A stretch of 24,168 nucleotides of DNA from a virus: IMG/VR virus record IMGVR_UViG_3300025151_000297, positions 1-24,168 of that record, one strand, 5' to 3'. The notes under the pieces were generated by a model. It worked only from the letters and a program-made list of their open reading frames with translations, was not told where the DNA came from and ran no database searches. The translations under genes were made by a program, and so were the position numbers. Each line of letters starts with the position of its first letter. Within the stretch, counting starts at the first letter, position 1. Positions 266 through 5,406 of this stretch are shown here, in pieces.

Positions 266-463
266 CTACTGATCTTGACTCAAAATCTCCTTTTCGCTGT
301 GATACGCACCTTTTTGGTACATCTCAGTTACGTCTCGCACCCAAGGCACCAACCAATCATTCACCTGTGAACACTGATCCCAGTTCATAGGCTTGGCGCA
401 CTGCACCACAACAGTTGTCCAGAACGCGCTGATAAACGCCCAGACCCAATAAAACTCACTCAT
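266..463 (-). CDS. small membrane-associated hypothetical protein (65 aa)
   Basis: This 65-residue protein has one hydrophobic, tryptophan-rich segment at about residues 4-22, followed by a polar tail with two cysteines (about 22 and 31). Its ATG overlaps the stop of the upstream C39-like peptidase by 8 nt (ATGAGTGA), which suggests translational coupling. I do not recognise the family. The position behind a membrane-anchored peptidase and the single N-terminal membrane helix would fit a lysis accessory protein such as a spanin-like or regulatory partner. That is only inference; no lipobox or long coiled coil is visible. Confidence 0.6.
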   Translation of the reverse strand: MSEFYWVWAFISAFWTTVVVQCAKPMNWDQCSQVNDWLVPWVRDVTEMYQKGAYHSEKEILSQDQ

Positions 464-1199
464 TAACGAGAATCACCCATCCAGTCCCAGGGCCTTCTGA
501 CTGCCAACGCTGGTAAAACGCAGCCTGCCTCACACGGACGTTACGTCCCAGATGCGGATTACTGTGCCCACCCTTCTCCATCTCGGGGTAACCACGAGGA
601 TCTTGCATGATCCACTCTGGATCGTTGCTGTTCTTGCCCGCGTAACCACTGATCACGCTCCAATGACCACAACCCAAGCCATTGCACATTGGTGGTTCAC
701 CGCGAAGCATGTTGCCAGCGTGCAACCAGCCAACCAGCACTGGTCTGCCAGCTTCGATCTCTAGCTCAACCATGTCAGCGTCACCGTCTTTCCGAAACTC
801 AGCTTCTAAGCCAAGACTGCGCAACGCTGCTAACTGAGCCTCTACTGACGTGGTGTCTCCGTATTTGGCGCGGATCTTGTTGTATTCATCATCCGTTCGA
901 ACCTTCTTGTAAAACGCTGCCACCATCGCAGCTGCTGAACTGAAACACTCGCGGTAGCCCGTTCCAGTCTTGTTGTCGAGCTGCTTGAAGTAGGGCATGA
1001 AGACTTGCTGGTCATAGCCACTCTCCTTCCACGCCTGAAACCAGTCTGCGTCTTCCTCCAATAGCTCCTCTGGCACTGACTCCTCAAGCTCCTTAATTGC
1101 AGCCAGCTGGTGGGGCGTACCACGAAAAAATTCAAAGAACGGAAGCAGCGCAAGCCCCATCACTAGCACCAGCAAGGTCACTTGGATAATGCCGGACAC
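456..1199 (-). CDS. membrane-anchored C39-like cysteine peptidase
   Basis: This 247-residue protein starts at a GTG three bases after the preceding stop. Residues 4-22 form an N-terminal hydrophobic helix, followed by an acidic linker (about 36-60). The rest has the papain-like C39/C39-like peptidase pattern: a catalytic Cys in GYRECFSSAAAMV (Cys85), a His in GCGHWSVISGY (His179) and an Asp in WIMQDPRGY (Asp200). The classic C39 family cleaves double-glycine leaders. C39-like proteins also occur in phages, where a role as cell-wall or processing peptidase is plausible. There is no ABC-transporter domain. With a membrane anchor and small membrane-protein neighbours, a lysis function (anchored or SAR-type lysin) is my leading guess. 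The triad and fold family are seen in sequence; the substrate is unknown. Confidence 0.75.
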   Translation of the reverse strand: MSGIIQVTLLVLVMGLALLPFFEFFRGTPHQLAAIKELEESVPEELLEEDADWFQAWKESGYDQQVFMPYFKQLDNKTGTGYRECFSSAAAMVAAFYKKVRTDDEYNKIRAKYGDTTSVEAQLAALRSLGLEAEFRKDGDADMVELEIEAGRPVLVGWLHAGNMLRGEPPMCNGLGCGHWSVISGYAGKNSNDPEWIMQDPRGYPEMEKGGHSNPHLGRNVRVRQAAFYQRWQSEGPGTGWVILVNE

Positions 1200-1202
1200 T
1201 AC

Positions 1203-1376
1203 CTACTTTTCAACTCTCGTGTCAGGCAACAGCATTTCACGTACATGCTTCACTGCCAAATCATCCAAATCGTTGTCCGTCCTTGCAACGATCTTCTCCA
1301 ACATCGCCAAAATCAATTCTTTAAACGCCCTTGACTTCCATGCGGTCATCAAGATTGGCTTGAGAATCAAAAGCAT
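1203..1376 (-). CDS. small hypothetical protein (57 aa), helical, phage-type
   Basis: I found this gene by reading the minus strand between the C39-like peptidase and the 83-residue gene. ATG at 1374-1376 opens a 57-residue frame ending in TAG at 1203-1205, three bases before the next start. The N-terminus is hydrophobic (MLLILKPILMTAWKSRAF). A leucine-rich helix (KELILAMLEKIVA) and a conserved-looking RTDNDLDDLAVKHVREMLL segment follow. I recall similar small proteins, with a hydrophobic start and a 'TDN.lDD.a' motif, from marine cyanophages, but cannot verify this. It fills the gap exactly, in the same strand and operon, which supports a real gene. Function is unknown; a membrane-peripheral role near the lysis genes is possible. 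The ribosome site is weak (AGAG about 7 nt upstream). Confidence 0.6.
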   Translation of the reverse strand: MLLILKPILMTAWKSRAFKELILAMLEKIVARTDNDLDDLAVKHVREMLLPDTRVEK

Positions 1377-1403: not shown

Positions 1404-1655
1404 TTAATGCCTATCGCTATGACCTTCCAGCCTGGCTACTGAACGCTCCAATTCATTCAATCTTGCGAACACCTCCATATCCTTTGTCTTGATGTCGTTG
1501 TGCAAAATATCCAAACGGCCAGCAAGATTATCGACAGCAGCCGTCAGCCGAATCAATGAATCTTGGCCTTGACGACTCTGACGACTAATACCTGAAGCGC
1601 CCAAACCAGCCACTGTGATTGACGCGCCAGCAACGGCAGCCCAGACTTCAACCAT
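1404..1655 (-). CDS. small protein with N-terminal membrane helix and coiled coil (83 aa)
   Basis: This is an 83-residue protein. Residues 3-24 are a small-residue-rich hydrophobic helix (Ala, Gly, Val). After a basic turn (SRQSRQ), residues 30-77 form a heptad-like amphipathic helix (leucines and valines near 35, 41, 44, 48, 51, 66, 69, 73 and 76). A GAGG ribosome site lies 6 nt before the ATG (plus-strand 1662-1665). This membrane-plus-coiled-coil layout is the mirror of XhlA-type proteins (coiled coil first, helix last) and resembles small phage proteins grouped with lysis genes. It is divergent from the plus-strand holin-like gene, with only 26 bp between the starts, so each promoter must lie inside the neighbouring gene. 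Function is inferred only from architecture. Confidence 0.6.
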   Translation of the reverse strand: MVEVWAAVAGASITVAGLGASGISRQSRQGQDSLIRLTAAVDNLAGRLDILHNDIKTKDMEVFARLNELERSVARLEGHSDRH

Positions 1656-1681: not shown

Positions 1682-1951
1682 ATGGCAGAACCCAAGAAAA
1701 CGCAAGACCAAGAACAAGAGGATGGAAACTCAAGACTGGGCGATGTCGTCAAAATCGTCTTGCTTGGCTGGGCTATGGCAATCCTGACCGCTAACTACCT
1801 TGGCGTCTTCAAGCAATCACTTGATCCGACCTACCCAGCCTCAATCCTTTCTGGCACGGCAGCCTCATTCGGCTTAGCAGTCGGGAACAATAGAAAGAAA
1901 AAAGAGGACACTACAATCAAGGAAGAACCATCTACCTCCAAGCCAAAATGA
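1682..1951 (+). CDS. holin-like two-helix membrane protein (89 aa)
   Basis: This 89-residue protein has a charged N-terminus (MAEPKKTQDQEQED), two hydrophobic helices at about residues 24-43 and 51-68, a short turn with a Pro, and a strongly basic then mixed-charge C-terminal tail (NNRKKKED...). This is the classical layout of class II phage holins, which form the membrane lesions that release or activate endolysins. No holin motif is diagnostic, so this is an architectural call; a membrane anchor for the secreted proteins downstream is an alternative. It is the first gene of a plus-strand cluster and its stop overlaps the next start by 4 nt (ATGA). No Shine-Dalgarno sequence is apparent, and only 26 bp separate it from the divergent gene. 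Confidence 0.55.
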   Translation: MAEPKKTQDQEQEDGNSRLGDVVKIVLLGWAMAILTANYLGVFKQSLDPTYPASILSGTAASFGLAVGNNRKKKEDTTIKEEPSTSKPK

Positions 1952-2439
1952 AACGCACACTTTTGGTATTGGGCATCACCCTTGCAGCTGCTTTGCCAGC
2001 CCAGGCTGACATCACGCATAGAATCCAGTCCAGCGTTTCACTGTCTGTTGATGGAGCGGGATCAGTCGCAACGCGGATTCCGTCTACATATTCAATATCT
2101 GGTAATAACGTCACTTTGGACACTGCTGGTGGTCTTGGCACCCTTACTGCCGGTTCCGCTGTTGGTTACACTCCTGCCGATTACAGCGTTACTACTGCTG
2201 GGGACGCTTTTAGTCTTACAGAATCATTCATCGAAGGGGACGCAACACCCACAGCAACCACCGTCACCTCCGGAGTAGTTGGCTCATTGCCAATGCTTGG
2301 TCAAACCACCACAACTTCAGGTGGTGTGGCTGGCAACCTTGCAGGCACAATCGCAACTGACGGAGCGCTCACAATCACAGCTGGTAGTGCTGGCACTCAG
2401 GCAATCGGGCAAGTCATCCAAGAGCTGACAATCAAATGA
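1948..2439 (+). CDS. exported hypothetical protein 1 of a secreted trio (163 aa)
   Basis: This 163-residue protein has a textbook signal peptide: MKRT, a hydrophobic core to about residue 16, then PAQA and a probable signal peptidase I cleavage after residue 20. The mature part is rich in Ser, Thr, Gly and Val and almost lacks Cys and charged clusters. It looks beta-structured, with repeated short Thr/Gly-rich strands, and ends in a more charged stretch (QAIGQVIQELTIK). I do not recognise the family. It is coupled by 4-nt ATGA overlaps to the holin-like gene before it and the second secreted gene after it, so the four genes are surely co-transcribed. Export to the periplasm or outer membrane of the host is well supported; the role there is unknown. 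Confidence 0.7.
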   Translation: MKRTLLVLGITLAAALPAQADITHRIQSSVSLSVDGAGSVATRIPSTYSISGNNVTLDTAGGLGTLTAGSAVGYTPADYSVTTAGDAFSLTESFIEGDATPTATTVTSGVVGSLPMLGQTTTTSGGVAGNLAGTIATDGALTITAGSAGTQAIGQVIQELTIK

Positions 2440-2888
2440 TGTGGACTGCAATTTGGATCACATACGGCGCTTTCTTCGCCATAGCTCTTGCCGCTCCAGA
2501 AGCTAAAGCTGTTCCTGTTGTCCCAAACTTCCAGCAGGGTGTTCTCTCCTCTAAAACCACAACGAAGACCAAGGTGAACGAGGTCATTAACTCGTACGAA
2601 TACCGCACGGGCTATGAACTCAGTGTTTCTGGCACGAACATCGCTCCAGTAAATGGCGAGATTGCGCCACGCGCTTTGACCACTACAACCAACACACTCA
2701 ATGGCATTTCAAGCCGTTGGGTTGGTCTTGATCCTGCTGACAAGCCCGCTTGGAATATCGTCAACCAAGGCGCTAGTTTTCAGTTCGTTGAAACCCTTCA
2801 AGGTCCGGGTCTCGTTAATCACACCTTGATTAACCGAGAAACTGATATTGAATCTCTTACAGAGACGACAAGCACCTTCACCCAATGA
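2436..2888 (+). CDS. exported hypothetical protein 2 of a secreted trio (150 aa)
   Basis: This 150-residue protein has an N-terminal hydrophobic segment (residues 3-20) followed by APEAKA, giving a likely cleavage site after residue 25. The mature chain contains a tyrosine-containing stretch (VINSYEYRTGYELSVSGTNI) and many Thr/Asn/Val positions, consistent with beta structure. No catalytic motif is seen. Two ATGs stand in tandem at the start (2436 and 2439). The first overlaps the upstream stop as ATGA and is preferred. Its own stop overlaps the next gene by 4 nt. Family unrecognised; it is always read together with its two exported neighbours, so a shared envelope-associated function or complex is the reasonable inference. 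Confidence 0.7.
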   Translation: MMWTAIWITYGAFFAIALAAPEAKAVPVVPNFQQGVLSSKTTTKTKVNEVINSYEYRTGYELSVSGTNIAPVNGEIAPRALTTTTNTLNGISSRWVGLDPADKPAWNIVNQGASFQFVETLQGPGLVNHTLINRETDIESLTETTSTFTQ

Positions 2889-3616
2889 AGCGAGTTCTCG
2901 CAACGCTTTTGCTGCTTTCCGCTCCAGCACAAGCACAAGTCTCAAGTACCGCCGCTCCAGTCGCCAACAGCAGTGGTTCGGTCACAAACCAAGCAGTTCA
3001 AGTCGTACCTAGTCGTCAATTCACAAACACTTATGGCGGAGGGATTAGCTGCCAAGGCACAACGCTGAACATCAATCCATTCGTTAGCTCTACAACAAGC
3101 TGGGCCACTCCATACGAATCACACTATGGTGACCCGGTTTATGACACTATCGATATTGTTGGCGCGTTTGATCCAGAAGGCAATCCCATCCCAGATGGCA
3201 GGCCCGATAATCCGGGCAATGTCCTCTTCTATAAACCTGTTCGCACGGGTCAAAAAACCAACTTCTCGATTAACGGCGGAATCACTGCCACACTTTCGAT
3301 ACCGCTAGATCGCGCTCATATCGAAAGCTGCCATCGAGCGGCAGAAAAGCAAGTGGCGCTTCTAGATGCGGCTCTCGCGGACAAGCGTCTTAACTACGAA
3401 CTGGCCAGGCTCAAAAACTGTGCCGAGCTGATGCAAAAGGGCATCATGTTCCACCCAGACTCGCCTTACGCCAAGATCTGTGCTGATGTTGTCCTAACAA
3501 ATCCGCCAGGCATAGTTCCGCCCCACAAACACTCGATCACTTACGCAAAGCCCTCTGAGCCTTCCGGCGTTGCCAAACCGACTCGACGGGAACCTTCTTC
3601 CCCAGTTTCTCCTTGA
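2885..3616 (+). CDS. exported hypothetical protein 3 of a secreted trio (243 aa)
   Basis: This is a 243-residue protein. The signal peptide is MKRVLATLLLLSAPAQA, with predicted cleavage after residue 17. Then come a Ser/Ala/Val-rich segment, a Tyr/Gly-rich section with a single Cys (TYGGGISCQGTTLNINPF, about residues 49-66) and a Pro/Gly/Asp-rich loop region. A beta section with SINGGITATLSIPLD follows, then an alpha-helical part with three cysteines at spaced positions (about 149, 178 and 199) that could form disulfides in the periplasm. The last 35 residues are Pro/Ser-rich and low in complexity. Its final 80 bp overlap, tail to tail, the C-terminal codons of the minus-strand proline-rich gene, so the tail may be a read-out extension. 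I recall proteins of this look in marine cyanophages but cannot assign a function. Confidence 0.7.
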   Translation: MKRVLATLLLLSAPAQAQVSSTAAPVANSSGSVTNQAVQVVPSRQFTNTYGGGISCQGTTLNINPFVSSTTSWATPYESHYGDPVYDTIDIVGAFDPEGNPIPDGRPDNPGNVLFYKPVRTGQKTNFSINGGITATLSIPLDRAHIESCHRAAEKQVALLDAALADKRLNYELARLKNCAELMQKGIMFHPDSPYAKICADVVLTNPPGIVPPHKHSITYAKPSEPSGVAKPTRREPSSPVSP

Positions 3617-4298
3617 TCTTCTTAATTGCTTTTTTGACCGTTGGCTTGACGGCTTTGAGCAAGAAATCACCTAACGGTTTGGCGAAGATGGCTGCCGTAG
3701 TCGCCACCACGGCAATCGTGGCCGTCGTTGCCACAACAGGCGCACCAGGTAAATAATTGCCGATGATCGTTGGTACGTCCAGCGGCTCATAGATCGCTTC
3801 GCACTTGTTTTCACTGGTCCTCTTGTAACCAATGATGACGGCAGTTTGCGCTTTGTTCTTCGCGCCTAAAGGAATTGCGTCAGGTGGAGGACATGGCAGC
3901 TCTATGGCTACTTTTGGAATGTCGGGAGCGGAACCCGACGGCGAAGAGGTGGGTTCCGGCTGACTTGAATCATCAGCCGGTTTTTCTATGTCTGGATCAA
4001 TAACCGGCGGCTTTGCTTCCCCATAAGTCAGAGTGCCGGGCGTGAAATCCAGCGGCTTGTATGAAGGCATCGTCCCATCACAGACAACCACGTTGCCACG
4101 CGGGTCATCGGTGTAAGCGTTCTCATTTCCAGGTTGCGAGTTTCGAGTCTCCACGCAGCCCGGTATATCCGCGACTGGAAATCCAACTTGAAGCGTGACG
4201 GGTGGGGCATCTGGGATACTCTGTGGTGGCATTGAACGCCATGCAGGAATCTCTGGAACGGAGATACGTGACACCCCAATCTCAGGAATTTCTGGCAT
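3537..4298 (-). CDS. proline-rich membrane protein of cyanophage type (253 aa)
   Basis: This 253-residue protein has three parts. Residues 1-35 are a Pro/Ile/Val-rich segment built on a repeated [IV]PEIP-type pattern (MPEIPEIGVSRISVPEIPAW). The middle is loop-like, with paired cysteines (about 48, 73, 136 and 165) and a low-complexity Pro/Ser/Asp linker near 99-125. The C-terminal part has one strong membrane helix (about 188-206) and a very basic end (KPTVKKAIKKIKEKLGKK). I recall marine cyanophage proteins with the same opening motif and tail, function unknown. A membrane- or virion-associated role is inferred. The ATG shares the CATG at 4296-4299 with the divergent plus-strand gene, and no Shine-Dalgarno sequence precedes it. 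The 3' end overlaps the secreted gene by 80 bp. Confidence 0.7.
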   Translation of the reverse strand: MPEIPEIGVSRISVPEIPAWRSMPPQSIPDAPPVTLQVGFPVADIPGCVETRNSQPGNENAYTDDPRGNVVVCDGTMPSYKPLDFTPGTLTYGEAKPPVIDPDIEKPADDSSQPEPTSSPSGSAPDIPKVAIELPCPPPDAIPLGAKNKAQTAVIIGYKRTSENKCEAIYEPLDVPTIIGNYLPGAPVVATTATIAVVATTAAIFAKPLGDFLLKAVKPTVKKAIKKIKEKLGKKVPVESVWQRRKAQRALRK

Positions 4299-4611
4299 GA
4301 AATCAGAACGGTTTACAGCAGGTCAGCTCTGGATTGAGCGCAACCGCAGACGGGAAGGCCCGCCTGTTGTTTACACCGTAATGTGCGGCAAAACAGCAAG
4401 ACCATTTACCGACCACAAGGCTATTCTCAAATTCGTGAAATGGCCGAAAGGAACACCAACTGGTGACAATCTGCGCGAATGGCTAGCGTCGTTTGAGCAG
4501 AAACCTCAAGCTCCCGCTCCAGAACTTGATATGGCAAAAATCAAGGCTGAAGGCTTCGGACCTGAAGCTCATGACGACGATCCAACCGCTAACACCAAGA
4601 TGGTGGTCTGA
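4297..4611 (+). CDS. small soluble hypothetical protein (104 aa)
   Basis: The preferred start is the ATG at 4297-4299, preceded by AGGA at 4284-4287 (9 nt spacing). A longer reading from 4195 would lie entirely within the coding sequence of the opposite gene and gives a low-quality N-terminus. The 104-residue product begins MKSERFTAGQLWIERNRRRE, with a basic N-terminal region, and continues with a compact mixed alpha/beta section containing one Cys. It ends in a Pro/Ala-rich linker and an acidic tail (HDDDPTANTKMVV). There is no membrane segment or signal peptide. Family unrecognised. A plus-strand terminator follows at 4698-4735. It is the only plus-strand gene here outside the four-gene cluster. 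Confidence 0.6.
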   Translation: MKSERFTAGQLWIERNRRREGPPVVYTVMCGKTARPFTDHKAILKFVKWPKGTPTGDNLREWLASFEQKPQAPAPELDMAKIKAEGFGPEAHDDDPTANTKMVV

Positions 4612-4740: not shown

Positions 4741-4974
4741 TCAAGGCATCTTGAAAGGCACAGCTGGACCTGTAGTGGTCGGCAGCTCTGGCATTGCCGC
4801 ATCAATCTCACCTGGAATCATCTCAGTGACCAGCTTGGTCATTTCTAACGTCAACTCGCTCATGTAATACTTCGTGAGCGATGGAATGCGCGTGTAGAGA
4901 AGCACCGTTCCAATCACCATCCCCGCAGACATCGTGAATGCTGCGACGGACATCACGTTGAAAAGCTTTTGCAT
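4741..4974 (-). CDS. small membrane protein of cyanophage type (77 aa)
   Basis: This 77-residue protein opens MQKLFNVMSVAAFTMSAGMV. The hydrophobic helix covers about residues 6-27 and is followed by a short basic/aromatic juxtamembrane section, an amphipathic helix (residues 33-52) and a Pro-rich end with PELP, AVPF and a final KMP. I recall marine cyanophage peptides with the same MQKLFNV opening, single helix and Pro-rich tail, with no known function. It begins just 6 nt after the U-tract of the terminator behind the outer-membrane-like gene, so it is either expressed by read-through or from a promoter overlapping that gene. The only purine-rich ribosome-site candidate is inside the terminator stem. 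Confidence 0.65.
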   Translation of the reverse strand: MQKLFNVMSVAAFTMSAGMVIGTVLLYTRIPSLTKYYMSELTLEMTKLVTEMIPGEIDAAMPELPTTTGPAVPFKMP

Positions 4975-5043: not shown

Positions 5044-5406
5044 TCAGAAGCTGTACTTCATGCCAACTTTGGTGCCGACAGACAGTTCGTCACCAGTGAT
5101 GCCGCTCAGTTCGCCATAGACAGAGGTTTTCTCGCCAACAGCAACCGAGCCACCGAACTTGCCAGCAAATTCGATTTCGTTCTCAGCACCGTTAGGCATC
5201 ACAACGGCAGGACCACCCTGGATGTAGAAGGAATAAGCGCCTTCAGAAAGCTCGTAACCCACATCAAGGTTGAGCGTTCCACCCAGATAGTCGTCGCCGT
5301 AGGAACCGCCGTTGAACTCAGGGTTCACATAAACGTCTGCGAGAGCAGGAGATGCCAGCGCAGCTGCTGAAACGGCGACACCACTCGCAATGAGAGTTTT
5401 GATCAT
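5044..5406 (-). CDS. exported outer-membrane beta-barrel-like protein (120 aa)
   Basis: This 120-residue protein has a clear signal peptide: MIKT, a hydrophobic core, then ASPALA with cleavage after about residue 23. The mature 97 residues consist of alternating polar/hydrophobic strands with Gly/Asp turns (GGTLNLDVGYELSEGAYSFY and similar) and finish in KVGMKYSF. A C-terminal aromatic residue after alternating hydrophobics is the recognition signature of outer-membrane beta-barrels inserted by the Bam machinery. The length allows roughly eight short strands. I recall closely similar small proteins in marine cyanophages. A role in changing the host surface, for example blocking superinfection, is possible but unproven. 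It has its own strong terminator, so it may be an independently expressed gene. It sits 11 nt behind the 41-residue gene. Confidence 0.7.
   Translation of the reverse strand: MIKTLIASGVAVSAAALASPALADVYVNPEFNGGSYGDDYLGGTLNLDVGYELSEGAYSFYIQGGPAVVMPNGAENEIEFAGKFGGSVAVGEKTSVYGELSGITGDELSVGTKVGMKYSF

Follow-up and report, generated by a model that had tools for sequence, protein, structure and literature searches.

What does a marine cyanophage do with a block of overlapping genes, most of whose products appear to be exported, that is read against its tail genes? The question is raised by a 24,168-base virus sequence (the window, in what follows), whose minus strand is filled with genes for a tail terminator, a tape measure, major and minor tail proteins, a J-like fibre and large fibre proteins. 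This gene set identifies the source as a siphovirus-type cyanophage. Among annotated phages, the J-like protein matches only those of S-LBS1, S-CBS1 and S-CBS3, at about 32% identity and over less than 20% of its length.

Four coupled genes and their convergent partner

The block consists of four plus-strand genes. The first, g1 (1682..1951), encodes a small membrane protein of 89 aa with a charged, lysine-rich C-terminus (DUF6450 / phrog_721 / T4-GC218). It is followed by three genes for proteins predicted to be exported: g2 (1948..2439; 163 aa, Ser/Thr/Gly-rich; phrog_564 / T4-GC237), g3 (2436..2888; 150 aa; DUF6322 / phrog_650 / T4-GC236) and g4 (2885..3616; 243 aa; phrog_848 / T4-GC235). 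As a sequence-only reading of this DNA had noted, each gene overlaps the next by an ATGA, at 1948..1951 (g1/g2), 2436..2439 (g2/g3) and 2885..2888 (g3/g4), and junctions of this type recur in near relatives (76/76, 57/79 and 78/80, respectively). The signal peptides with AxA sites predicted in the same reading are also found, with cleavage between AQA and D in g2, AKA and V in g3, and AQA and Q in g4; a crude test is positive in 208/223, 306/322 and 320/328 of their homologues (93-98%), against a background of 265/882 ORFs (30%) under a lenient rule. All four genes match a phage protein family in a PHROGs/Pfam-type search (E 2e-16 to 7e-89), have relatives in 359-440 annotated phage records and show a low median dN/dS among close relatives (0.08, 0.17, 0.12 and 0.10 for g1 to g4). 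By these measures, they are genuine genes under purifying selection and not chance ORFs. The earlier remark that they carry no recognisable domains thus holds for function but not for families, since DUF6450, DUF6322, phrog_564 and phrog_848 are all recognised.

The unit does not end at 3616, where it had been closed. A convergent minus-strand gene, r5 (3537..4298; 253 aa; phrog_570 / T4-GC234), overlaps g4 by 80 bp at its 3' end and travels along with it. We gathered about 320 loci from different phage types through their g4 relatives and mapped the gene families on them; conditional on g4, with which the loci were fetched, g3, g4 and r5 lie within 4 kb in 100/100 loci with enough flank (siphovirus-type, T4-like and T7-like groups). 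Because of this linkage, r5 belongs to the cassette as its fifth member, as judged from gene order. On whether the four plus-strand genes always occur together, the answer is therefore mixed: g1 is within 4 kb in 90/100 of these loci, while g2 is present in 91/91 loci outside the T7-like group and in 0/9 inside it. The genes are scattered to the extent that g1 stands apart in T4-like phages and TIM5 and that g2 is missing in T7-like phages; otherwise they are linked. The cassette had also been described as running against the rest of the genome, and g1-g4 do lie on the plus strand, although they are not alone there. Between r5 and the minus-strand gene r6 sits another plus-strand ORF (4300-4611; 103 aa, phrog_37139), a small insertion-like gene found only in part of the near relatives.

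The layout varies with the phage type. In siphovirus-type contigs, an endolysin gene, s57 and h83 on the minus strand are followed by g1-g2-g3-g4 on the plus strand, which converge on r5, r6 and an outer-membrane-like barrel gene. The podovirus AP013546 also has the four genes, linked by ATGA, plus r5, and TIM5 carries the cassette too. In T4-like phages, g2-g3-g4 converge on r5, r6 and g1. T7-like phages have the order r5-g1-g3-g4-s57: genes related to g1, g3 and g4 are common to P-SSP7 (PSSP7_042-045) and its equivalents in P-SSP10, P-SSP2, S-RIP2 and S-SBP1, with an r5-related gene in P-SSP7, P-SSP10, P-SSP2 and S-RIP2. These versions differ from that of the window in occupying a single strand, in having a short r5 without cysteines, in lacking g2 and in the extensive overlap of g3 with g4. 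Annotation of the region is uneven. In P-SSP10, g3 (L085:3690-4085) is unannotated, hidden by a wrong out-of-frame start of PROG_00048 inside it, while the gene omitted from the annotation of S-RSM4 and S-SCSM1 is g4.

The system had been put forward as undescribed, but the core of the cluster was already reported as linked hypothetical genes: Sullivan et al. 2010 (PMC3037559) described, in T4-like phages only and with no function reported, a 'mobile' cluster in 15/16 T4-like cyanophages made of T4-GCs 218, 219, 234, 235 and 237 plus a plasmid stability protein. In phmmer comparisons with the genes of S-SM1, g1 matches GC218 (2.5e-8), g2 GC237 (6e-32), g4 GC235 (4e-76), r5 GC234 (2e-34) and r6 GC414 (1.4e-11), and g3, between g2 and g4, corresponds to GC236; GC219 has no match among the 12 window ORFs compared. 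These matches place the cassette in a known, functionally blank cluster. Both versions have g2-g3-g4 converging on r5; in the window, however, the operon starts with g1 and every junction is an ATGA, whereas the T4-like g1 is usually downstream of r5 on the other strand. What is new here, from the comparison of genomes, is that the cassette is also present in siphovirus-type contigs, a podovirus, TIM5 and T7-like phages. Literature naming DUF6322, DUF6450 or the T4-GC numbers was not found in the name forms searched.

The 2010 idea of plasmid stability implies that these could be independently acting genes that merely travel together through mobility. The cluster does occupy different genome places in different phages, as one would expect of such a set. 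On the other hand, g3, g4 and r5 remain together in phages whose backbones differ greatly, and two of the genes are paralogous (see below). Moreover, r6 (4741..4974, minus strand; phrog_568 / T4-GC414), the gene annotated 'plasmid stability', encodes a 77-aa single-TM protein; outside T7-like phages it is usually found downstream of r5, but no r6 was detected in T7-like loci, although these keep the cluster. We regard co-travelling as quite improbable, and mobility by plasmid stability was set aside given that r6 is a tiny membrane protein. The label itself, which papers have used to argue for mobility or plasmid-like states, looks doubtful for a protein of this kind.

A profile search found g3 and g4 to be absent from S-PM2, Syn5, P60, P-SS2, S-CBS4, S-CBS2, S-CREM2, S-CREM1 and S-SZBM1, several of which infect estuarine Synechococcus. 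Because some lytic cyanophages do without these genes, the module is, by its distribution, accessory, and perhaps tied to host type. Relatives of g4 also turn up in bacterial and archaeal assemblies (L336-L350), including MAGs of several phyla, Prochlorococcus single cells and a 188-kb Nonlabens xiamenensis contig. A host origin of the cassette is not supported, the 15 genome-contig matches being MAGs of unrelated taxa, single-cell genomes and one isolate assembly; they look like mis-binned or infecting cyanophage DNA.

Predicted anatomy of the proteins

The first gene product had been called holin-like, with two membrane helices. A simple hydropathy scan gives one clear TM helix, at residues 19-35; the second rests on a relative, PSSP7_043 of P-SSP7, whose record carries a TMHMM note of two TM regions. 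Compared with class II holins (two TM segments, 65-95 aa, charged C-terminus), g1 has 89 aa, a charged C-terminus and one clear TM by hydropathy. It thus resembles T7 gp17.5 as a small membrane protein with a charged C-terminus, and holds the corresponding slot in T7-like genomes, but differs in matching no holin family: PHROGs, Pfam and NCBIfam returned only function-less families or nothing. The resemblance is one of architecture only.

The exported proteins g2 and g3 are, from profile comparison, distant paralogues (hhalign 85.8%, E 5e-6), and the g2 profile also matches g3 of S-RSM4 (E 3e-4). An AlphaFold2 model of g3 (pLDDT 87, pTM 0.49) predicts a small beta domain of good local confidence with strands of 24-25 residues, at 9-32 and 100-124, whose conservation alternates (entropy even/odd 0.75/1.31 and 1.75/0.58). 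A single antiparallel register accommodates the conserved pairs E24-R109, T16-T117 and I26-I107, although other registers of the same parity correlate too. The mostly polar character of the strands gives no indication that they insert into a membrane. The g4 model is weaker (pLDDT 71, pTM 0.40), with a beta-rich N-terminal part followed by a 42-residue helix, and four Cys are invariant across its homologues. As for r5, it has a proline-rich N-terminal arm, also with four invariant Cys, one TM (188-204) and a basic C-terminal tail; a signal peptide is absent. Four invariant cysteines in each of g4 and r5 are what one would expect in an oxidising compartment, which fits export. Taking these features together, we consider it very probable that the cassette products are located at the envelope.

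Structure searches add little to this. Foldseek against the PDB gave no significant match at E<=1e-3 for the g3 or g4 models and no chaperone or translocase fold, and PDB sequence searches with four profiles were empty or returned chance matches. Against a viral structure library at E<=1e-3, g3 finds mostly uncharacterised phage proteins, the top one belonging to a phage which also has g3. Its weak Foldseek list includes pore-state beta pore formers, phage collars and spore-appendage fibres, which we read only as an indication of long beta strands in the model. It would be tempting to see an aerolysin/lysenin-type pore former in g3, since the long strands are alike and several weak matches are pore-state chains. 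However, its strands are polar, no match reaches E<=1e-3, TM-scores are 0.13-0.30 and the best pore former in the PDB is lysenin (E 0.07, TM 0.14); we claim no homology and set this reading aside on polarity and insignificant scores.

A different reading of the same features is that the proteins belong to the virion, as minor parts of the tail or fibres with N-termini that merely resemble signal peptides. Tail-fibre genes are next to the cassette in T7-like phages, as tail genes are in the window, and g3 is weakly similar to phage collar/tail proteins (Foldseek best E 1.6e-3, TM 0.18). Nevertheless, the signal peptides are kept across distant phages, and S-TIM5 marks neighbours of the cassette, and not the cassette genes, as 'virion structural protein'. 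Going by the annotation of S-SCSM1, whose 'virion protein' flags we take to be the mass-spectrometry set (the paper gives 45 proteins detected), g2 (SSCSM1_167), g3 (166), r5 (165) and r6 (163) are annotated without the flag given to structural genes, while g4 is unannotated. The virion tables of S-CREM2 and S-SZBM1 are uninformative for g3 and g4, as both phages lack these genes. On the S-SCSM1 flags as we take them, the prospect that these would turn out to be plain virion components finds no support for g2, g3 and r5, and this reading was set aside; we hold it to be very improbable.

Timing, genome slot and neighbouring lysis genes

A T4-type late-promoter motif, [AC]TAAATA, turns up in the 110 bp ahead of g2 in 26/44 and 41/50 of the sequences from the T4-like and mixed groups, where about 4 would be expected in each set. 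Its occurrences cluster at 25-35 nt from the gene start, and it is found upstream of none of the siphovirus-type cassettes. For comparison, the late element of T4 reads TATAAAT. In T7-like phages, the block lies in the late region between the tail fibre and the small terminase (TerS), as in P-SSP7, where the order is tail fibre, r5, g1, g3, g4, PSSP7_046 and TerS. Thus, the cassette is probably expressed late in infection. The sequence-only reading had proposed a joint activity at the host envelope, covering lysis, surface change or exclusion; what survives is a conserved unit with products predicted for the envelope, whose late-promoter motif and genome position agree better with lysis than with exclusion early in infection. 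We put at roughly 85% the probability that marine cyanophages have in the cassette a late envelope module, an estimate that rests on gene and protein sequences.

The place between fibre and TerS deserves attention of its own. S-CBP2 keeps there an endolysin related to that of the window, and T7 has its holin 17.5 in this slot. Syn5, which lacks the cassette, has in it s57 and the TM-plus-helical-looking gp47. Beside its cassette, S-SBP1 carries s57 as well as gp50, a relative of gp47, so these are not simple replacements of one another. Among cyanopodoviruses (L329, L352, L355), the slot content varies between an endolysin (S-CBP2), Syn5 gp47 or S-SBP1 gp50 (phrog_12220), and the cassette. This slot would be a useful place for seeking lysis genes in cyanopodoviruses.

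In the window, the cassette abuts a conventional lysis locus that lies at the left end, all of it on the minus strand. An endolysin-like papain/C39-type peptidase (456..1199; phrog_10051) is followed by s57 (1203..1376; phrog_2738), a conserved protein of 57 aa, and by h83 (1404..1655; phrog_26178), of 83 aa with an N-terminal TM and a helical-looking C-terminal part, whose homologue in S-CBS1 lies immediately upstream of the endolysin region. Close to its N-terminus, the endolysin is hydrophobic over residues 3-19 (mean hydropathy 2.5), so it may be of the membrane-tethered or signal-anchor-release type. The s57 gene adjoins the endolysin in siphovirus-type contigs but lies immediately behind g4 and ahead of TerS in T7-like cyanophages (loci L178, L216 and L085).

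A possible role at the outer membrane

For a late set of exported and inner-membrane-anchored proteins, swapped as a unit between unrelated phages that share a host group and found near lysis genes or in the lysis slot in two layouts, action on the envelope late in infection is the most economical explanation. Our tentative suggestion, which we would hold at well below even odds, is that it disrupts the outer membrane or aids release at lysis; we rank this ahead of surface remodelling. In such a scheme, g1 would sit in the inner membrane, where r5 would be anchored by its C-terminal TM, with the basic tail in the cytoplasm and the Cys-bearing proline-rich arm in the periplasm. Exported g2 and g3 would form an oligomer held together by their long beta strands, located either in the periplasm or at the outer membrane, and disulphide-bonded g4 would join this assembly, via its long helix, to the r5/g1 base. 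At the end of infection, the complex might then weaken or rupture the outer membrane, doing part of the spanins' job beside a conventional endolysin; this is the least certain step. We could speculate further that the r5 arm, g1, the paralogous g2/g3 and the g4 connector provide a hitherto unrecognised way through the outer membrane that needs no spanin and passes as one module between cyanophages of the siphovirus, podovirus, T4 and TIM5 types, although in this complete form the proposal is doubtful.

The likeness to spanins (Rz/Rz1, u-spanins) would consist in an inner-membrane anchor with a periplasmic arm and exported partners, produced late and acting at the outer membrane. In r5, the candidate for the anchored protein, a single TM lies towards the C-terminus and the long arm, which would be periplasmic, holds the four invariant Cys. 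In contrast to spanins, the cassette has more components and no lipobox, outer-membrane lipoprotein or similarity to a named spanin family: lipobox-like motifs are found in 0/223 g2, 3/322 g3 and 5/328 g4 homologues, and no candidate lipobox ORF was found within the window. About 20 marine cyanophages, including P-SSP7, Syn9, P-SSM2 and S-SM1, are without a recognisable spanin according to Kongari et al. 2018 (PMC6139136). The cassette is present in P-SSP7, Syn9, S-SM1 and S-RSM4, all on this spanin-less list, and we count the missing spanins in its favour for an outer-membrane role.

Several points weigh against the proposal. Several 'spanin-less' phages also lack the cassette; since S-PM2, Syn5, P60 and others do without it, the lysis of marine Synechococcus does not need it, and a universal replacement of spanins was rejected on S-PM2, Syn5, P60, P-SS2 and S-CBS4. 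The window has its separate endolysin/h83 locus, most T4-like phages have the cassette away from their lysis genes, and family and structure searches gave no homology of its proteins to any holin, spanin or pore former. As r5 has no signal peptide, the route of its arm across the membrane is the least explained step. In addition, Kongari et al. suggest that fragility of the host's outer membrane may be what lies behind the lack of spanins.

The main rival is that the exported proteins could remodel the envelope without lysis, coating or modifying the outer membrane of the infected cell so as to keep further or released phages from adsorbing or to alter its surface. Their beta-rich, Ser/Thr-rich composition would suit this, the cassette often adjoins a phage outer-membrane barrel, and its patchy spread, with absence from the tested phages of estuarine Synechococcus, suggests a host- or niche-linked role. 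Yet the T4 exclusion genes are early, unlike a set with a late-promoter motif, and a surface coat has no obvious need of an inner-membrane-anchored r5 or a membrane protein like g1. We consider remodelling unlikely, and less so than the remaining idea, that the complex folds, exports or inserts another envelope protein of the phage, such as the barrel just mentioned. This cyanophage outer-membrane-like beta barrel (5044..5406, minus strand; PF24653 / phrog_417) is a neighbour outside the core; it lies within 4 kb in 35/35 siphovirus-type loci with flank and adjoins the cassette in S-SM1 and AP013546. Such constancy would befit a client, but the barrel is near only 7/32 T4-like loci and no T7-like loci with flank, and the structure searches found no chaperone or translocase fold. 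Moreover, a DUF680 protein, the label of the barrel's S-SM1 relative, was detected in purified virions of S-SZBM1 (PMC9146016 Table 1), a phage without g3 and g4. An accessory role in assembly or secretion is, accordingly, improbable.

Outer-membrane disruption at lysis is the reading that we tentatively prefer. Annotated records with relatives of the cassette genes number more than 400; they come from phages of Prochlorococcus and Synechococcus, dominant ocean phototrophs, and the labels of these genes remain 'hypothetical protein'. With predicted envelope location, probable late expression and a place in a lysis slot, the cassette would be a specific and testable candidate for how these phages open the outer membrane of their hosts.
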